From Planctomycetaceae bacterium (GTDB lineage: Bacteria; Planctomycetota; Planctomycetia; Planctomycetales; Planctomycetaceae): a DNA stretch of 64,000 bases. The notes below the pieces were generated by a model. The model worked only from the letters and a program-made list of their open reading frames with translations. It was not told the origin of the DNA and searched no databases. Below are positions 353-43,200 of the stretch, one piece after another. The translations under genes were made by a program, and so were the position numbers. Positions within the stretch are counted from its first letter, which is position 1. Every line of letters begins with the position of its first letter. The stretch spans positions 1 to 64,000 of the forward strand of contig OMIV01000073.1 in assembly GCA_900299185.1 (NCBI GenBank), read 5' to 3'.

Positions 353-1228
353 TTGTCCGCCCCGACTCGCCTTCAACAGCGGCAGCTCAAAGCCTTTGAG
401 GGGCGCGATGCGGAGTTAGATCAACTCGATGCCGATTGGCAGGCGGCTTTGGGAAATGCGCCTGGTCGAGCGAAGGTTGTGTCACTGGTGGCGATCGGCG
501 GGGCGGGCAAGACGACGGTGGCGGTGCGGTAGAAGAACCGGCTGTTGCAGCGGGCTGAGCATGGTGGCGTCGAGCGGTATTTCGATTGGTCGTTCTACAG
601 TCAGGGCACGCGCGGCGTCGGCGACGAGACTGCCGCGCGGAGCGTGGGCGATGCCACTTCGTTCTTGGCCGAGGCTCTCAAGTTCTTCGGCGATCGCGAG
701 TTGGCCGAGAGTCCCGCACCCGCTTGGGACAAGGGCGCGCGGCTGGCGACGTTGGTGGCTCAGCAGCACTCGCTGTTGATCTTGGATGGGCTCGAGCCTT
801 TGCAGCATCCGCCGGGCCCGCAAGTCGGAGAACTGCTCGACGACGGTTTGAAGGCGTTGTTCTTCGGTCTGCAAACGGCGGATCGCGGGCTGTGTGTGGT
901 CACGACGCGCGAGCGTCTGAGAGACCTCGACGCGACCGACGGCTGCAGCACGTCGTCTCGAAAGTTGGACCACTTGAGCGACGACGCCGGAGCCGCCGTA
1001 CTGCGAGGTCATGGCGTGACTGGGCCTATGGAAGAATTGCGACAGGTGAGTCGCGAGGTGCGCGGGCATGCGTTGACACTGTCGCTGATGGGCCAGTTCT
1101 TGAAACTGGCGTTCGAGAAGCCGGACATCGCTCAGCGCGACTGTTTTCAGTTTCAAGAGGCAGACAAGGAAGTTCAGAACGGTCACGCCTTCCGCGTCTT
1201 CGCGGCATATGAAGAGTGGCTGCTCCGC

Positions 1229-1374
1229 GTAGGTTGGGACTCTGTCCCGACCAAGTCTGTTGTGACTCCAGTCACGCCGGCACCCTCGCCGCTCGACCGC
1301 GCCACACCGATGGACGAGCCGAGCGCAAATCAGAAGACAAAGGCGAAAGCGGACGGGATGGAATCCCATCCTAC
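1229..1374 (+). repeat. Palindromic element A1 inserted in frame in the STAND gene
   Basis: The left end GTAGGTTGGGACTCTGTCCC is matched by an inverted right end reading GTAGGATGGGATTCCATCCC, with five mismatches over 21 bp. Each end also folds on itself (GGGA..TCCC). The insert is translated as VGWDSVPT...DGMESHPT. It interrupts a helical region between EEWLL and ERLVAILRLLGLF. Confidence 0.8.
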
Positions 1375-1750
1375 GGGGGAGCGACTCGTCGCGATCTTGC
1401 GGTTGCTGGGATTGTTTGACCGACCGGCGACTCCGGACTGTGTGGCGGCGTTGTGTGCCGAGCCGCTGCCGGGTTTGAACGAACCGCTGCTGAACCTGAG
1501 CAACAAAGAATGGACCATCGCCGTCAACCGGCTGAAGGAACTCGACCTGATCGAGCCCCTGCCGTGGCAGCCCGTCTCAACCGTCATGGGCTATGGGGAA
1601 GACGCGGCTCGTGGAGTATTTGGTACATGGGAAGACATCGGCGAGCCGCAGCCGCATGCCGTTCCGGCGGTGAGAGTCCCGCTGCGAATGTCGCTCGACG
1701 CTCACCCGGTGCTGCGCGAGTACTTCGCCGAGCGGCTGCGAAGTGAGCCT

Positions 1751-1863
1751 GTGGTCGCCTTCCGCTCCGCGAAAGAGCGTCTTGGTGCCAAGCCCTCGAC
1801 AGCGGATTCACCTTCGGACGCCGCCGAAAGCGGACGCTCTTTCGCGGAGCGAAAGGCGACCAC
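1751..1863 (+). repeat. Palindromic element B inserted in frame in the STAND gene
   Basis: A 30-bp inverted repeat (1751-1780 and 1834-1863) pairs with only one mismatch. The ends read GTGGTCGCCTT and AAGGCGACCAC. The 53-bp centre is unpaired. The insert is translated as VVAFRSAKER...GRSFAERKATT, a sequence that is foreign to the surrounding fold. Confidence 0.85.
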
Positions 1864-2601
1864 AAACACGTTCCAGCTCGCGCACGCGCGGTTGTTCGAG
1901 CACTTGCGACAGAGCGTGCCGTACTGGCCCGAGGGTCGTGAGGGCTTGCTGCCGCTGTATCAGGCCGTCGCTCACGGCTGCCTCGCCGGTCGTTTTCAAG
2001 AAGCCTGCGACGACGTGTCTCGCAACCGCATCCTGCGCGGCACCGCTGGCACGCACGCGTTCTACAGCCGTAACAAGCTCGGCTTGCTGAGCTTGGACCT
2101 CGCGGCGGTGGCTTGTTTCTTCGTCGCCCCGTGGTCGCGGCTGGCGGAGTCGCTCGCCCCCGGCGCTCAAGCGTGGCTGCTGAGCGACGCCGCCTATAGC
2201 CTCCGTGCCCTGAACCGCCTCACCGAAGCCCGCGATGCCTTTCGGGCTGCACTAGGCTTGGCAGTTGCCGAAGAGAATTGGAAGGCGGCGGCTATCCGAG
2301 CCAGCAACCTGAGCGAACTGGAACTCACGCTGGGCGAGGTGGCTGCCGCCGAGGCGACGGCGGCGCAGTCCGTCACCTTCGCCGACCGCAGCGGCGACTG
2401 GTCGCAGAAGATGAGAAGGCGCGCGACGCACGCCGACGCGTTGCACCAAGCGGGGCGGCGAGCGGAGAGCTGCTCGCTGTTTGCCGAGGCCGAGGCCCTG
2501 CAATTCAAATCACAGCCCGACTACCCGCAGCTCTACTCGCTGCCGGGCTATCGCTATTGCGACCTGCTGCTGGCCGCTTGCGAGCGGGCCGCATGGCAAA
2601 G

Positions 2602-2763
2602 TGGCCATCACGCTCCGCGTGATGAGCCTTCCACACGCGACCTGGATGCCTCGTTGCGCGTCGTTTCCTCGAACGGCACTGCTGAGACGTTTCTGCCATC
2701 GACCTCGGATGGAACGCAGGGAGCCGATTCTGCGAAGGCTCATCACGTGGAACGTGATGGCTA
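2602..2763 (+). repeat. Palindromic element C inserted in frame in the STAND gene
   Basis: A 30-bp inverted repeat (2602-2631 and 2734-2763) pairs with three mismatches. The arms contain ATCACGCTCCGCGTGAT and ATCACGTGGAACGTGAT, so each arm is itself palindromic. The insert sits between ACERAAWQ and EILDAVERRA in the translation. Confidence 0.85.
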
Positions 2764-3182
2764 CATTGAAATACTCGACGCTGTTGAACGACGAGCGACG
2801 CAAACGTTGGAGTGGGCGATCCAGAATCGACTGTCGCTTCTGACCATCGCCCTCGATCACTTAACGCTGGGCCGCGTGTTGTTGCTGCGAGCGGTGCTGA
2901 CCGGTGCGGCGACCGCCGAGCGGCTCGGTCCCGCTCGCGACGCTCTGGCCACCGCCCTGCACACGCTCCGTCAGGCGAACTTCAGCTACATGCTTCCGCA
3001 CGCGTTGTTGCCGAGTGCGTGGTGTCACGTGTTGTTGGGCGAGCGGGATTCGGCGGAGCAGCGGTTGAACGAAGCCTTCCAACTGGCAACGCGGTGCGGG
3101 AACTCTTCGACCAACGACTTTCAGGGCGGCATGCGACTGCACCTGATCGACACCCTGCTGCACCGCGCTTGCCTCTTCGGCT

Positions 3183-3329
3183 GTAGGTTGGGACTCTGTC
3201 CCGACCTCGTCCGTTGGGACTCCAGTCACGACGGCTCCGTCTCCGCTCAACCGCGCCCGTCCAAAAAGCGAGCTACATTCCATTCAGAAGACAATGACGA
3301 AGAAGGTCGGGATGGAATCCCAACCTACA
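3183..3329 (+). repeat. Palindromic element A2, second copy of the A1 family
   Basis: The ends match element A1 (GTAGGTTGGGACTCTGTCCC...GGGATGGAATCCCAACCTAC). The terminal inverted repeats have three mismatches over 25 bp. The host gene reads this copy in a different frame from A1 (CRLGLCPD rather than VGWDSVPT), yet it still contains no stop codon. Length is 147 bp, or 49 codons. Confidence 0.8.
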
Positions 3330-3527
3330 ACTATCCGTGGCAAGATTCCTCACCAGCCGCCGACCTCACGCTGGCCGCGCATCTCATCAAAGTCACCGGC
3401 TACCACCGCCGAGACGAAGAACTCGCCGACGCTCAGGCGGCGCTCGGTCAGTCAGCCGAATAGGCCCCTCGTTCCAGCGAGTGCTGACAGCAAATCGAGG
3501 CTGCTCGACGTGATGTACTTACTCGTA

Positions 3528-6589: not shown

Positions 6590-6624
6590 GACGAGCGCCG
6601 CCGCAATCACTTTCCAATTTGAAT

Positions 6625-6708
6625 TGGGTGGCACGCTCTGACCAACGGGAAGGGCGTGGTCGAGCTAAGTGAGCACACGCCCTTCGAGTACTCAGGGCGT
6701 GCCACCCA
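6625..6708. repeat. Nested palindromic repeat, possible transcript end
   Basis: The outer arms TGGGTGGCACGC (from 6625) and GCGTGCCACCCA (to 6708) pair. Inner arms GAAGGGCGTG (6649-6658) and CACGCCCTTC (6676-6685) form a second stem. It lies just after the beta-helix gene and resembles a dispersed REP/MITE-like element. No U-tract follows. Confidence 0.7.
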
Positions 6709-6860
6709 CTTCGGGAAGTTATGGATGCCTCGTTCCTAAGAAGAGCAACGACCAGCAACCAACTTGACCGTCCCAGCCACAACTGATCCAAGCTTGATGC
6801 GAATCCATCAGCGAACGTCGGCTCTGGCTGCGGAGCATTCGCATCACCACGAAACACTTC

Positions 6861-24174: not shown

Positions 24175-24673
24175 GCTATAGCTCGCTGTGACCGAGTCCC
24201 TCGCAACGGACTTGGCCGATCCGAGGATTCTCGATGAGGACGCACAGAAACAACGCAACTCCTGAATTGGCCGGGCGTTGTAGCAGCCGTTTGAGAACCG
24301 GCGAAGGCTCGGGACTCCGGCTTTTCCAGAACTGCAACCAGGTTTGATTGATCGGCCTAGCGAAGCTTTGCCGATTCTGACGGTTGATTCGCCGCGCTTC
24401 AGCTCGGTCGCAGGAGTCATTGTCCGTTTCGAGGTTGCCATGCCATCAAGGCATGGGCGCTTGGTACCGGCCCAACAACAAGACTGAGTCGTGAAGCGAC
24501 TCAGCTACGTAGCTCAGTCGCTCTGCGACTGAGAAGCATCAGGAATGATGCTCCTCAAGCTGCGATGTTGTTCTTGGACCGGTCCTTAGCCCGCCGAGAT
24601 TGAGACGACTTGGTCAGGTGACGCTTCCTGCGAACAACTAGCGCGTGCGAGAACAGCCAATGTCTGTCAGAGG
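24175..24673. other. Intergenic region with repeats
   Basis: About 500 bp. It contains a short hairpin GCCATGCC..GGCATGGG (24437-24457) and the CTACGTAG-type repeat listed separately. No supported gene. The promoter of the ExbB-like operon should lie in the right part. Confidence 0.5.
24485..24533. repeat. CTACGTAG-centred palindromic repeat, copy 2
   Basis: Hairpin TGAGTCGTGAAGCGACTCA (24485-24503), then CTACGTAG (24505-24512), then hairpin CTCAGTCGC..GCGACTGAG (24513-24533). The layout matches the copies at 7616, 31984 and 38207. Confidence 0.85.
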
Positions 24674-29417: not shown

Positions 29418-29436
29418 GAGGAAGAGCGGGAATAGA

Positions 29437-29511
29437 TCTCACGCAGAGACGCAGGGTGCGCGGAGATAACTGCTTCTTCCAGCTCTGCGAACCCCGCGCC
29501 TCTGCGTGAGA
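29437..29511. repeat. GAAACACAGAGG-type palindromic repeat, diverged copy
   Basis: Arms TCTCACGCAGAG and CTCTGCGTGAGA pair over 12 bp and enclose GACGCAGGG..CCCCGCGCC. The element lies between convergent genes, where it may also end transcription. It is related to the copies at 35303, 39946, 42406, 42887 and 43117. Confidence 0.65.
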
Positions 29512-29564
29512 ATTCTTCCATTCCAGACATCGTCGGAGCTGCGGTCACCTTCCAATGGCTGCCC

Positions 29565-38206: not shown

Positions 38207-38256
38207 GCGAGTCGCGGAGCGACTCGCCTACGTAGCTCAGTCGCTCCGCGACTGAG
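38207..38256. repeat. CTACGTAG-centred palindromic repeat, copy 4 (inverted)
   Basis: Hairpin GCGAGTCGCGGAGCGACTCGC (38207-38227), CTACGTAG (38228-38235), hairpin CTCAGTCGCTCCGCGACTGAG (38236-38256). The two hairpins are in the opposite order to copies 1 and 3. Confidence 0.85.
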
Positions 38257-39945: not shown

Positions 39946-40031
39946 GTTTGAAACACAGAGGCACAGTGAGCACAGAGGAAAATGAGTTAGACTCATCCCC
40001 TCTGTGTCCCCTGTGCCTCTGTGTTTCAAAC
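39946..40031. repeat. GAAACACAGAGG-type palindromic repeat, copy
   Basis: The ends read GTTTGAAACACAGAGGCACAG and CTGTGCCTCTGTGTTTCAAAC, an almost perfect inverted pair, with a second weak palindrome inside. Together with the following 56 bp it is nearly identical to 43117-43256. Confidence 0.85.
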
Positions 40032-40087
40032 TCTTCTTCGAATTACTTCAGTTCCTTAATCCGAATGCGGCGGTATTCCATTTGGCT
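40032..40087 (-). pseudogene. Duplicated 3' end of a DUF1080 gene
   Basis: This stretch encodes MEYRRIRIKELK followed by a stop on the minus strand, the same ending as the acetylesterase-DUF1080 fusion at 43212. The match continues into the adjoining repeat. Nothing of the rest of DUF1080 is present. It abuts the broken vapC, into whose frame it is fused. Confidence 0.8.
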
Positions 40088-40115
40088 CCGACGATGACTG
40101 CCGCCTGCTTGGACG

Positions 40116-40540
40116 TCAGATCGTCCAGTCCGCGAATCGCAGTCCCGGCACTCGTTCAAAGTCCGGGTGTTCCGAGTCAGCAACAGCGCGCCGCGACTGA
40201 TGGTGATGCTGGCGATCTTCAAAACAGAAGCGCCGATACGAACTCCCTCGCGACGCAGTCGCTCAAAGTGAGCCACTGCGACGGCGTCCGGTTGAACGCT
40301 CTCAAAGTCCTCAAAGAAACGAATGAATTGTTCGAGCCGCGCGAAGTACATGAGTTGCGACTGCAGGTCTTTCTAGCGACCAATGAGATTCAACCAGCCT
40401 TTGAGTTGCTCGAAGGCTGAGACAATCGTCACAGCAACGTCATCCACAGGAATGGCCTCCATTCGACTTCGCAGGATGGCACCTTCGCGGGAATCTGGAC
40501 GCTGCAGGAAGGAGATGTGATCGGTGTCTAACAAGATCAT
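40116..40540 (-). pseudogene. vapC: VapC-type PIN-domain toxin, broken
   Basis: Translation from the ATG at 40540 gives MILLDTDHISFLQRPD (first PIN acidic residue), then VTIVSAFEQLKGWLNLIGR. An in-frame TAG follows, then QLMYFARLEQFIRFFEDF...VRIGASVLKIASITISRGALLLTRN. Near the end a shift of one base is needed to continue DFERVPGLRFADWTI and a normal stop at 40116-40118. Length with both repairs is about 141 aa, typical for VapC. VapC toxins are ribonucleases. Two lesions make this one inactive. The antitoxin gene is just upstream. Confidence 0.8.
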
Positions 40541-40576
40541 GCTCGGCCCTCGTCATTGACTCGCTCACGGGTGATT

Positions 40577-40792
40577 TCACTGAGGGTCAGCATTCACCGT
40601 CGCCCGCTCTTCTTCTCTCAATCTTAGTCCTTCGGCGATGATCTCCTGAGTGACAGCATCATCAGTGATTTTGCCAATGCTGTTCCGCCAATCGCGGCGC
40701 GGAACAGCTGCGCTCGCCTGCGGAAGACGATCTTGAATGATCTGTTCCAAGCGAGCGACGCGCTGTGTGAGTTCTTCCAACGTATCGGCCAC
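40577..40792 (-). CDS. Antitoxin-like partner of VapC
   Basis: This 71-aa protein starts at a GTG: MADTLEELTQRVARLEQIIQDRL, then DWRNSIGKITDDAVTQEIIAEGLRLREEER. This pattern (helical N-terminus, DWR..G..T.D..M/T.EI..E.LR.R) is common in small planctomycete and cyanobacterial antitoxins that sit directly before a PIN toxin. The gap to vapC is 36 bp. With the toxin broken, it may be a leftover that still neutralises related toxins. Confidence 0.7.
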   Translation of the reverse strand: MADTLEELTQRVARLEQIIQDRLPQASAAVPRRDWRNSIGKITDDAVTQEIIAEGLRLREEERATVNADPQ

Positions 40793-40960
40793 AGCGATGC
40801 CTTTTCAGAGTGATGATTCAGCAAGCGTCGAATGAAGTCAGCGAGGTCAGGCACGTTGCTTATGGCTTCGGACTGACGGCGATTTCAAACGGCTCGACCC
40901 GAAAGCCAGAGTTGTTCCATAGCTCGTAATCAGCCTGCCTATTTCTGCGACGAACCGGGC

Positions 40961-42379
40961 TCAGTCGGACACGCAAGGATTCGGAACGTCGTCGCTGGAA
41001 ACGATAACTGTGTCGTTGGCGATCTCGGCATTGGCTCGTTTCCAATCGCCGGCATTGCTTTGCACCTCGAAGCCTTCGATGTCCTCTCGCCCCTTCAGGA
41101 GTCCATTCTTGGACGCAGTGAAGTGTAGCACGACCTTCTTTCCATCCACGCTAACGTGATCGCACTCAGGCACGGGCCACTCGATCGACTCGCCATAGAA
41201 TGCTTCCATCACAGCTAACGCGGCGAGTTCGGCATAGAGATGGTCCTGAGGTGGGTCTGGAAACCCACGAGCACGCCGAGCCGGTGATATCGAGACGATG
41301 TTGTCACGAGTTTCAGGTCGTCCGCGATTCCACTTCGACCTCGCAGCGAACAAGTCCTTCTGATTCCACTCTGGTCGCCAAGCCTGAATTAGGAAGAGTG
41401 AGCTTTGCGGTTCTTCGTCATTAAGGAGGAGACCTCGAATGGCGAATGGAATGAGCGGGGCAACGATGTTGTGAAAGTTGGCTGACGGACGATTTGGCCC
41501 CAGTTCCGGATGATCTCGAGGATTTGGCCGCGGCACCGGATGCCCCTCTCCATTTCCAAATGACTTTCTCATGGCTTCCTCTGTCTGCCGTTGCCGCTCC
41601 ATCTTTTCGGGGTCTTTCGCCCATGCCGCAGACAAGGTCTCAAATGCCTTGACCGAGCGATCGTGCTCACGCAGAGCAGCCATTCCGAAATCGGTCGACT
41701 CCAGTGTCGACCGTCGGACCCAAGAAGCGATCTTGGTATTCCTCGAAGAGAAGGGCGAGGGAATGATGACCCCTACGGGCACATTGAGTTTTGAATGGAG
41801 TGCCTGAGCAAAGAGGGTTATTGAATGACGATTTTCCGGAACGACCCAATGTTCTGAATGGGACTGTTGCGGCACGCCAAATCCTTTGACATGCACATCC
41901 AAGACTCGAATGGCACGATCAATCTTTGGCGTATCTCTTGAAGCAGCATTCGACGGCGCCGAATCAAAAACTGAGTTGCCTGTGAAAAAGTCCTTCGCCA
42001 GCCAGACCTCCCCAACGAGCACGTCCTGAAGACGGCGATTTTCCGCTTGCGATGTGACGACTAACTCTCGTCCTTCCTTCGAAGCCGCAAGAGGATCGAG
42101 CTTGAGCATCCATCTGCCGTCCTTGTCCGCCGTCGCTGATTTCTCTTGGTCCGCAAACCGCACGACGACTTTCGCTCCGGCTTGAGCCCGCCCCCAAACT
42201 GGTACGGGCATGTCTCGCTGCAAGATGGCTTGATCGGTGAAGGGGCTTGCGAGCGTGAGTTTCTCTGACGCTACCGCGAATGATGAAAACCGGGCGGACA
42301 GCACTAACAGCGCAATTAAGAACGCGGGGCATTGTCTCGTCACTTCTTCGCTCCCGTTGGTAAGGTCTGACGACCGCAT
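40961..42379 (-). CDS. Degenerate sialate O-acetylesterase-like paralogue
   Basis: The ATG at 42379 is chosen. The 36 codons upstream are repeat sequence. The 472-aa product has a signal peptide (PAFLIALLVLSARFSSFAVA). The N-terminal module LTLASPFTDQAILQRDMPVPVWGRAQAGAKVVVRF closely follows the intact paralogue at 43212. The catalytic GQSNM is absent: the paralogue reads GEVWVCSGQSNM, here GEVWLAKDFFTGNS. The YQGES block is also replaced. The frame stops at PNPCVSD, but the -1 frame continues VRLSPVRRRN...NNSGFRVEPFEIAV to 40860, so a frameshift near 40965 probably removed the true C-terminus. It is likely non-catalytic or a pseudogene. Confidence 0.75.
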   Translation of the reverse strand: MRSSDLTNGSEEVTRQCPAFLIALLVLSARFSSFAVASEKLTLASPFTDQAILQRDMPVPVWGRAQAGAKVVVRFADQEKSATADKDGRWMLKLDPLAASKEGRELVVTSQAENRRLQDVLVGEVWLAKDFFTGNSVFDSAPSNAASRDTPKIDRAIRVLDVHVKGFGVPQQSHSEHWVVPENRHSITLFAQALHSKLNVPVGVIIPSPFSSRNTKIASWVRRSTLESTDFGMAALREHDRSVKAFETLSAAWAKDPEKMERQRQTEEAMRKSFGNGEGHPVPRPNPRDHPELGPNRPSANFHNIVAPLIPFAIRGLLLNDEEPQSSLFLIQAWRPEWNQKDLFAARSKWNRGRPETRDNIVSISPARRARGFPDPPQDHLYAELAALAVMEAFYGESIEWPVPECDHVSVDGKKVVLHFTASKNGLLKGREDIEGFEVQSNAGDWKRANAEIANDTVIVSSDDVPNPCVSD

Positions 42380-42405
42380 GTTTGTACTCGCCAGGCGTTG
42401 TGCTG

Positions 42406-42486
42406 GTTTGAAACACAGAGGCACAGTGAGCACAGAGAGAAGAGATTTCGAATCTTTCTCTGTGCCCTCTGTGACTCTGTGTTTCA
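42406..42486. repeat. GAAACACAGAGG-type palindromic repeat, copy
   Basis: Ends GTTTGAAACACAGAGGCACAG and GTGACTCTGTGTTTC. It lies directly upstream of the degenerate acetylesterase gene, and its right arm creates the false N-terminal extension of that frame. Confidence 0.85.
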
Positions 42487-42496
42487 TTCTTCGGAT

Positions 42497-42874
42497 TTAG
42501 AACCCGCAAACAATGCGATGCACCCCGTCAACGAGTCGCTCCTCGTGGAAGTTGATCAATAGGCCAAAGCGAAGATTGAGCAATCTCAGGTGCGACAGCG
42601 TTTGAGCTTTGTCGACCGGATGAATGGCAGATTTCGCTTTTAGCTCCACCACGACGAGACCGTTGACGATTAAGTCCGCTCGAAATCCGCAGTCGAGTTT
42701 CACGTCATCATAGACAACTGGGACCGGTTGCTCTTCCACGACTGTTAAGCCGCGTTTCCGAAGTTCGTATGCCAGACATACCCGGTAAGCAGACTCCAGA
42801 AGTCCTGGGCCAAGCCGCTTATGAACCTCGATAGCAGCAGCGATGACTGCTCCGGTGAGTTCGTTGATTTGCAT
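42497..42874 (-). CDS. GxxExxY family protein
   Basis: This 125-aa protein starts [42 protein letters not shown]. The GPGLLESAY motif names the GxxExxY family. The middle reads FRADLIVNGLVVVELKA, with D..(V)ELK arranged as in PDDEXK nucleases, followed by LRLLNLRFGLLINF. Function is unproven. A nuclease-like fold is known by comparison. The ATG at 42874 matches the family start. The frame upstream of it is repeat DNA. Confidence 0.88.
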   Translation of the reverse strand: MQINELTGAVIAAAIEVHKRLGPGLLESAYRVCLAYELRKRGLTVVEEQPVPVVYDDVKLDCGFRADLIVNGLVVVELKAKSAIHPVDKAQTLSHLRLLNLRFGLLINFHEERLVDGVHRIVCGF

Positions 42875-42886
42875 GCGATGTCCTTT

Positions 42887-42956
42887 TTGAAACACAGAGG
42901 TACGGAGGGAAGAAGATTCGAATCTTTCTCCGTGTCCTCTGTGCCTCTGTGTTTCA
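42887..42956. repeat. GAAACACAGAGG-type palindromic repeat, copy
   Basis: TTGAAACACAGAGG at the left pairs with CCTCTGTGTTTCA at the right. It separates the intact GxxExxY gene from its truncated duplicate. Confidence 0.85.
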
Positions 42957-43008
42957 GATTTTTGGAGCAACTGAGAACTTAAATTTGGCGCCGCCCCCAA
43001 GCCGGACA

Positions 43009-43104
43009 TACCCGGTAAGCAGACTCCAGAAGACCTGGGCCAAGCCGCTTATGAACCTCGATAGCAGCAGCGATGATTGCTCCGGTGAGATCGTTGATTT
43101 GCAT
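43009..43104 (-). pseudogene. Truncated duplicate of the GxxExxY gene start
   Basis: The first 32 codons ([30 protein letters not shown]) repeat the intact gene at 42497-42874 with few changes, and the sequence then diverges. The same leader TCCTTTTTGAAACACAGAGG lies upstream of both. It is a partial tandem duplication and cannot encode a whole protein. Confidence 0.85.
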
Positions 43105-43116
43105 CGTCTGTCCTTT

Positions 43117-43200
43117 TTGAAACACAGAGGCACGGAGAGCACAGAGAAGAACGAGTTCGACTCATCCCCTCTGTGTCCCCCGTGCCTCTGCGTTTCAAAC
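43117..43200. repeat. GAAACACAGAGG-type palindromic repeat, copy
   Basis: TTGAAACACAGAGGCACGG at the left, CCGTGCCTCTGCGTTTCAA at the right. It lies 11 bp past the end of the acetylesterase-DUF1080 gene. The whole block is copied at 39946-40087. Confidence 0.85.

Follow-up and report, generated by a model that had tools for sequence, protein, structure and literature searches.

In-frame REP dimers at four sites of a planctomycete STAND-TPR gene and palindromes at the same sites in its homologues

Four REP dimers in one STAND-TPR gene

A single STAND-TPR gene at the start of the window (the whole 64,000-nucleotide stretch analysed) contains four in-frame elements, A to D, all of them REPIN-like dimers of GTAG- or GTGG-tagged REPs from three families, each with further copies in the genome. 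They are very probably elements moved by RAYTs and kept in frame in protein loops by selection, with the same turns being reused across phyla. The features of the locus are the following:

377 to 544, plus strand: upstream remnant, in frame, with the P-loop GGAGKTT
530 to 532, plus strand: in-frame TAG directly past the P-loop, at about the position of a near-invariant Trp in homologues
545 to 3463, plus strand: STAND-TPR ORF, 972 aa from TTG, host of elements A to D
1229 to 1374, plus strand: element A, REP dimer of the A/D family, GTAG tags, 146 bp tag-to-tag
1751 to 1863, plus strand: element B, REP dimer, GTGG tags, 113 bp tag-to-tag; its family flanks the RAYT gene of contig C122
2601 to 2764, plus strand: element C, REP dimer, GTGG/GTAG tags, 164 bp tag-to-tag; its family flanks the RAYT gene of contig C269
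3183 to 3328, plus strand: element D, REP dimer of the A/D family, GTAG tags, 146 bp tag-to-tag

All four elements are in frame with ORF 545-3463 in the ORF listing, and each has, at both outer ends, a tag (GTAG or GTGG) and behind it a small palindrome. The inverted-repeat search of the window recovered the arms of element B (1750-1781/1833-1864, 97%), element C (2597-2631/2734-2768, 89%) and element D (3182-3214/3297-3329, 82%). Element A was not among its output; its ends are REPs of the family of D, and the two elements are 78% identical across 146 bp. Codon-shuffled controls of ORF 545-3463 gave no inverted repeat of this strength. Folded as single-stranded DNA, elements B, C and D had z-scores of -9.9, -6.2 and -4.0, and element A folded only weakly better than its shuffles (z -1.9). 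The sequence-only reading had described four in-frame inverted-repeat elements in one STAND-type gene, lying between the sequence blocks of the family, and both statements stand: the repeats are of a mobile type, in frame and absent from the shuffled controls, and the ends of A/D and B are found again in the genome.

REP families and RAYT genes

The inverted ends, for which a genome search had been proposed in the same reading, do recur. The A/D-family REP has 40 matches in the genome and the B-family REP 96, with 0 in the reversed-pattern control of each, and the C family is present in few copies only. REPs of the A and B type occur mainly as inverted dimers, 53 of them in the sample described below. 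Elements A to D are members of an established superfamily, the GTAG REPs, with which RAYT transposases are associated.

One RAYT gene, on contig C269, has C-family dimers on both flanks (match to NF047646, E 2e-14, under its curated cut-off) and another, on contig C122, has B dimers on both flanks; these genes carry the HUH motif (PNHVHLL). As the B and C families each flank a RAYT gene, the movers of both are likely to be present in the genome, and the flanked RAYTs would be the ones that mobilise the elements. No RAYT gene flanked by A/D-family REPs was found in the draft assembly (383 contigs); this family presumably has a transposase as well. The third RAYT gene (L186, contig C344) is flanked by a family other than those of A to D, GGGTGGCACGC, and an inverted repeat of that family is located at 6621-6712 of the window.

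Other repeats were identified in the window: short palindromes of the form GTAGCTCAGTCGCTCCGCGACT at 24484-24533 and 38210-38253, probably another GTAG REP family, and inverted copies of a CACAGAGGCACAG-type repeat at 39946-43199 and 29429-29519. The contig start (1-80) has a short reading frame that we take to resemble the end of a transposase.

The host protein

The STAND label of the window protein probably holds, because its homologues have a P-loop/NACHT region as well as helical repeats and because the best PDB match of its model in Foldseek is 6mfv, a solved STAND-TPR protein. Among the features of a STAND NTPase with TPRs, the helical repeats are present and the P-loop, present in homologues, is cut off by the stop in the window copy. 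Searched against Pfam and NCBIfam, the window protein matched no family, and PADLOC assigned it to no defence family. The gene may be damaged, judging from the TAG at 530-532 after the P-loop, or the TAG may be an assembly error of this draft genome; no recognisable N-terminal domain was identified before it.

In the AlphaFold2 model the segments 238-270, 415-438, 691-726 and 885-924, with pLDDT below 50, fall inside inserts A to D, so that all four inserts are predicted to lie in low-confidence loops between helices. A further low-pLDDT segment, 346-372, holds no REP. The model of homologue L062 also places the four sites between helices, with short turns at A, B and D and a low-confidence stretch at C. 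The inserts are presumably translated.

Protein-embedded dimers in the rest of the genome

The census comprises 55 dimers of the three families, sampled from genome stretches around REP matches, with coding status taken from a codon-usage score. For 24 of them the flanks on either side are clearly coding in a single frame that runs through the dimer without a stop, so at least 44% of the sample lies in frame within ORFs. Five more have signals on the same strand in another frame and all sit at ORF ends, which is why the count is 24 of 24 in frame (probability 3.5e-12 at a chance of 1/3 each). Two dimers have signals on opposite strands on their two sides, and the remainder show a coding signal on one flank or an unclear one. 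The length between REP ends is 2 modulo 3 in 34 of the 55, noncoding ones included, these copies not being independent. The B copies use several reading frames, and thus no single peptide is conserved. Given the at least 24 in-frame dimers among 55, the location of these REPs is not mainly extragenic; PMC3733652 counts intragenic copies among the REPs, which makes an extragenic location a usual and not a defining trait.

The host proteins include hydantoinase A, PSD1/PSCyt2, Roc-COR, WD40-Roc, BNR-esterase, VIT/VWA and DUF7133 proteins, and many of them retain complete Pfam domains (hydantoinase, PSD1/PSCyt2, Roc-COR, WD40). For one insert outside the STAND gene, that of hydantoinase A, a same-genus protein 83% identical is an uninterrupted homologue: the site reads RGGLLKEDAGQGTTLKLM in the latter and RGGLSTFAPRKHG...FAERKPTLKLM in this genome. 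Most other relatives of hydantoinase A align only from about residue 392 onward, just past the insert.

Palindromes at the same sites in homologues

The homologue set comprises 76 loci from several phyla, found with a TPR-only alignment. Of 31 palindromes in these homologues, 18 map to the four sites of the window protein, which make up about 4% of it (1.4e-17, or 1.2e-4 without site C, under a test that assumes uniform placement though insertions survive only in loops, and that treats homologues as independent). Site C is the most frequently occupied, with 13 palindromes, followed by A with three and B and D with one each. The palindromes mostly differ in sequence and many have GTAG or GTGG tags; those of L102, L120 and L132 are short repeats lacking the GTAG tag. 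The C family is common to site C of the window, L079 and L113, with different interiors, and the element may have been inherited by the three from a shared ancestor. The sequence-only reading had held that the same segments at the same places in homologues would speak against insertion; the four places are indeed occupied elsewhere, but nearly all the palindromes differ, with the exception of the C family in L079 and L113.

Recurrence was checked in few homologue genomes: a C-family-like REP has 47 matches in the L079 genome (control 0), and a degenerate pattern one base off the REP of L077 has 27 matches in the L077 genome, to a related GTGG family. RAYT-type matches were identified in all 11 homologue genomes tested, eight of them above the curated cut-off.

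A paralogue in the same genome (L042; G000:C126; 2440-2640 and 3366-3535) has a SEFIR/TIR N-terminus; its reading frame is broken at site B, and site C holds a palindrome that differs from that of the window gene.

Proposed mechanism and alternatives

Each segment consists of two inverted GTAG/GTGG-tagged REP hairpins around a variable core. The elements would be non-autonomous; most likely, RAYT (HUH/Y1) transposases encoded in this genome move them in single-stranded form. REP dimers would often land in genes in this planctomycete, and purifying selection would retain those that hold the frame, have no stop and fall in inter-helix loops. Apparently a few helix turns of STAND-TPR proteins tolerate long insertions, and those turns would therefore be hit repeatedly, in seemingly independent events that involve different REP families from one phylum to another.

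The sequence-only reading had offered decay of the gene as one reason for its tolerance. A pile-up in a pseudogene where any insertion is neutral would agree with the TAG past the P-loop and the unrecognisable N-terminal domain upstream, and the window gene may be decaying. All four elements, however, leave the frame open, and homologues of other phyla with long open frames have palindromes at the same sites. About two dozen dimers are in frame genome-wide, and since many of their host genes keep full Pfam domains, decay is not required, and a pile-up in a pseudogene is an unlikely explanation. Somewhat less likely still is an adaptive role in which mobile palindromes supply new sequence and diversify the sensor part of STAND proteins. 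All four sites are C-terminal to the NTPase core, within the helical part; 13 homologues have a palindrome at site C, mostly an unrelated one, and the paralogue L042 has its own there. Against this, the genome has similar inserts in enzymes and cytochrome-type proteins, several reading frames are in use and the inserts are predicted to be disordered. Tolerance of loops is favoured over a benefit of the inserts.

A preference of RAYTs for a DNA target that happens to be conserved at these sites seems more doubtful again. Site C elements start about 0-25 bp from a conserved Trp codon, but the offsets vary, and as the palindromes differ among homologues the transposases presumably differ too. That the segments are native variable linkers with chance palindromes is hardly credible: linker length does vary greatly within the family, yet the genome has dozens of copies of the same ends, some of them flanking RAYT genes, and such repeats are missing from the codon-shuffled controls.

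Relation to known elements

The type of element is known, since intragenic GTAG REPs have been described, in the available text of PMC3733652 (2013), as GTAG-tagged palindromes in ORFs, often dimers, with the same REPs on the flanks of RAYT genes. They are most abundant in 'O. terrae' (Verrucomicrobia), and some ORFs have two insertions. The present case differs from those of that text in the load of one gene, which holds four dimers from three families, in the in-frame share (44% or more of the dimers sampled lie within ORFs) and in the use of the same sites across phyla, for which the sole precedent there is recB of two Xanthomonas species, where REPs that differ occupy roughly one position.

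REPINs are linked to RAYTs. The dimers resemble those of Pseudomonas fluorescens SBW25, inverted REP doublets that make one long hairpin (PMC3116915). In SBW25 only 14 of 1,067 REP 16-mers overlap genes (PMC3116915), whereas here a large share is inside genes, though the two figures come from different methods and allow only a rough comparison.

The likeness to the palindromic elements of Rickettsia (RPEs), drawn in the sequence-only reading, is borne out by palindromes of a mobile type in frame in genes of many functions, with ends that recur in the genome. The two may be set apart by their tags, as RPE-4 and RPE-6 correspond to CGTC repeats (PMC3733652) and the outer tags here are GTAG/GTGG. 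That reading also knew of no planctomycete equivalent. This was too broad as regards the elements, which are of a known superfamily with families reported in Planctomycetes (same text); for protein-embedded REPs, the main-text literature searched gave no report from planctomycetes.

Significance

Both the in-frame share of at least 44% of sampled dimers and the reuse of STAND-TPR sites across phyla look new. A wider proposal is speculative and rather improbable at present: that REPs are a recurrent source of new protein loops, placed in frame at the same STAND-TPR turns across phyla and diversifying them, and that the REP populations of this planctomycete are largely protein-embedded. The observations suggest that, beyond Rickettsia, mobile REPs can reside within proteins throughout a genome, here that of a planctomycete. 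They also suggest convergence, with REPs of separate families ending up in the same loops of a protein family. Through that convergence a single gene family would make an old question testable, namely whether such inserts are merely tolerated or also useful.
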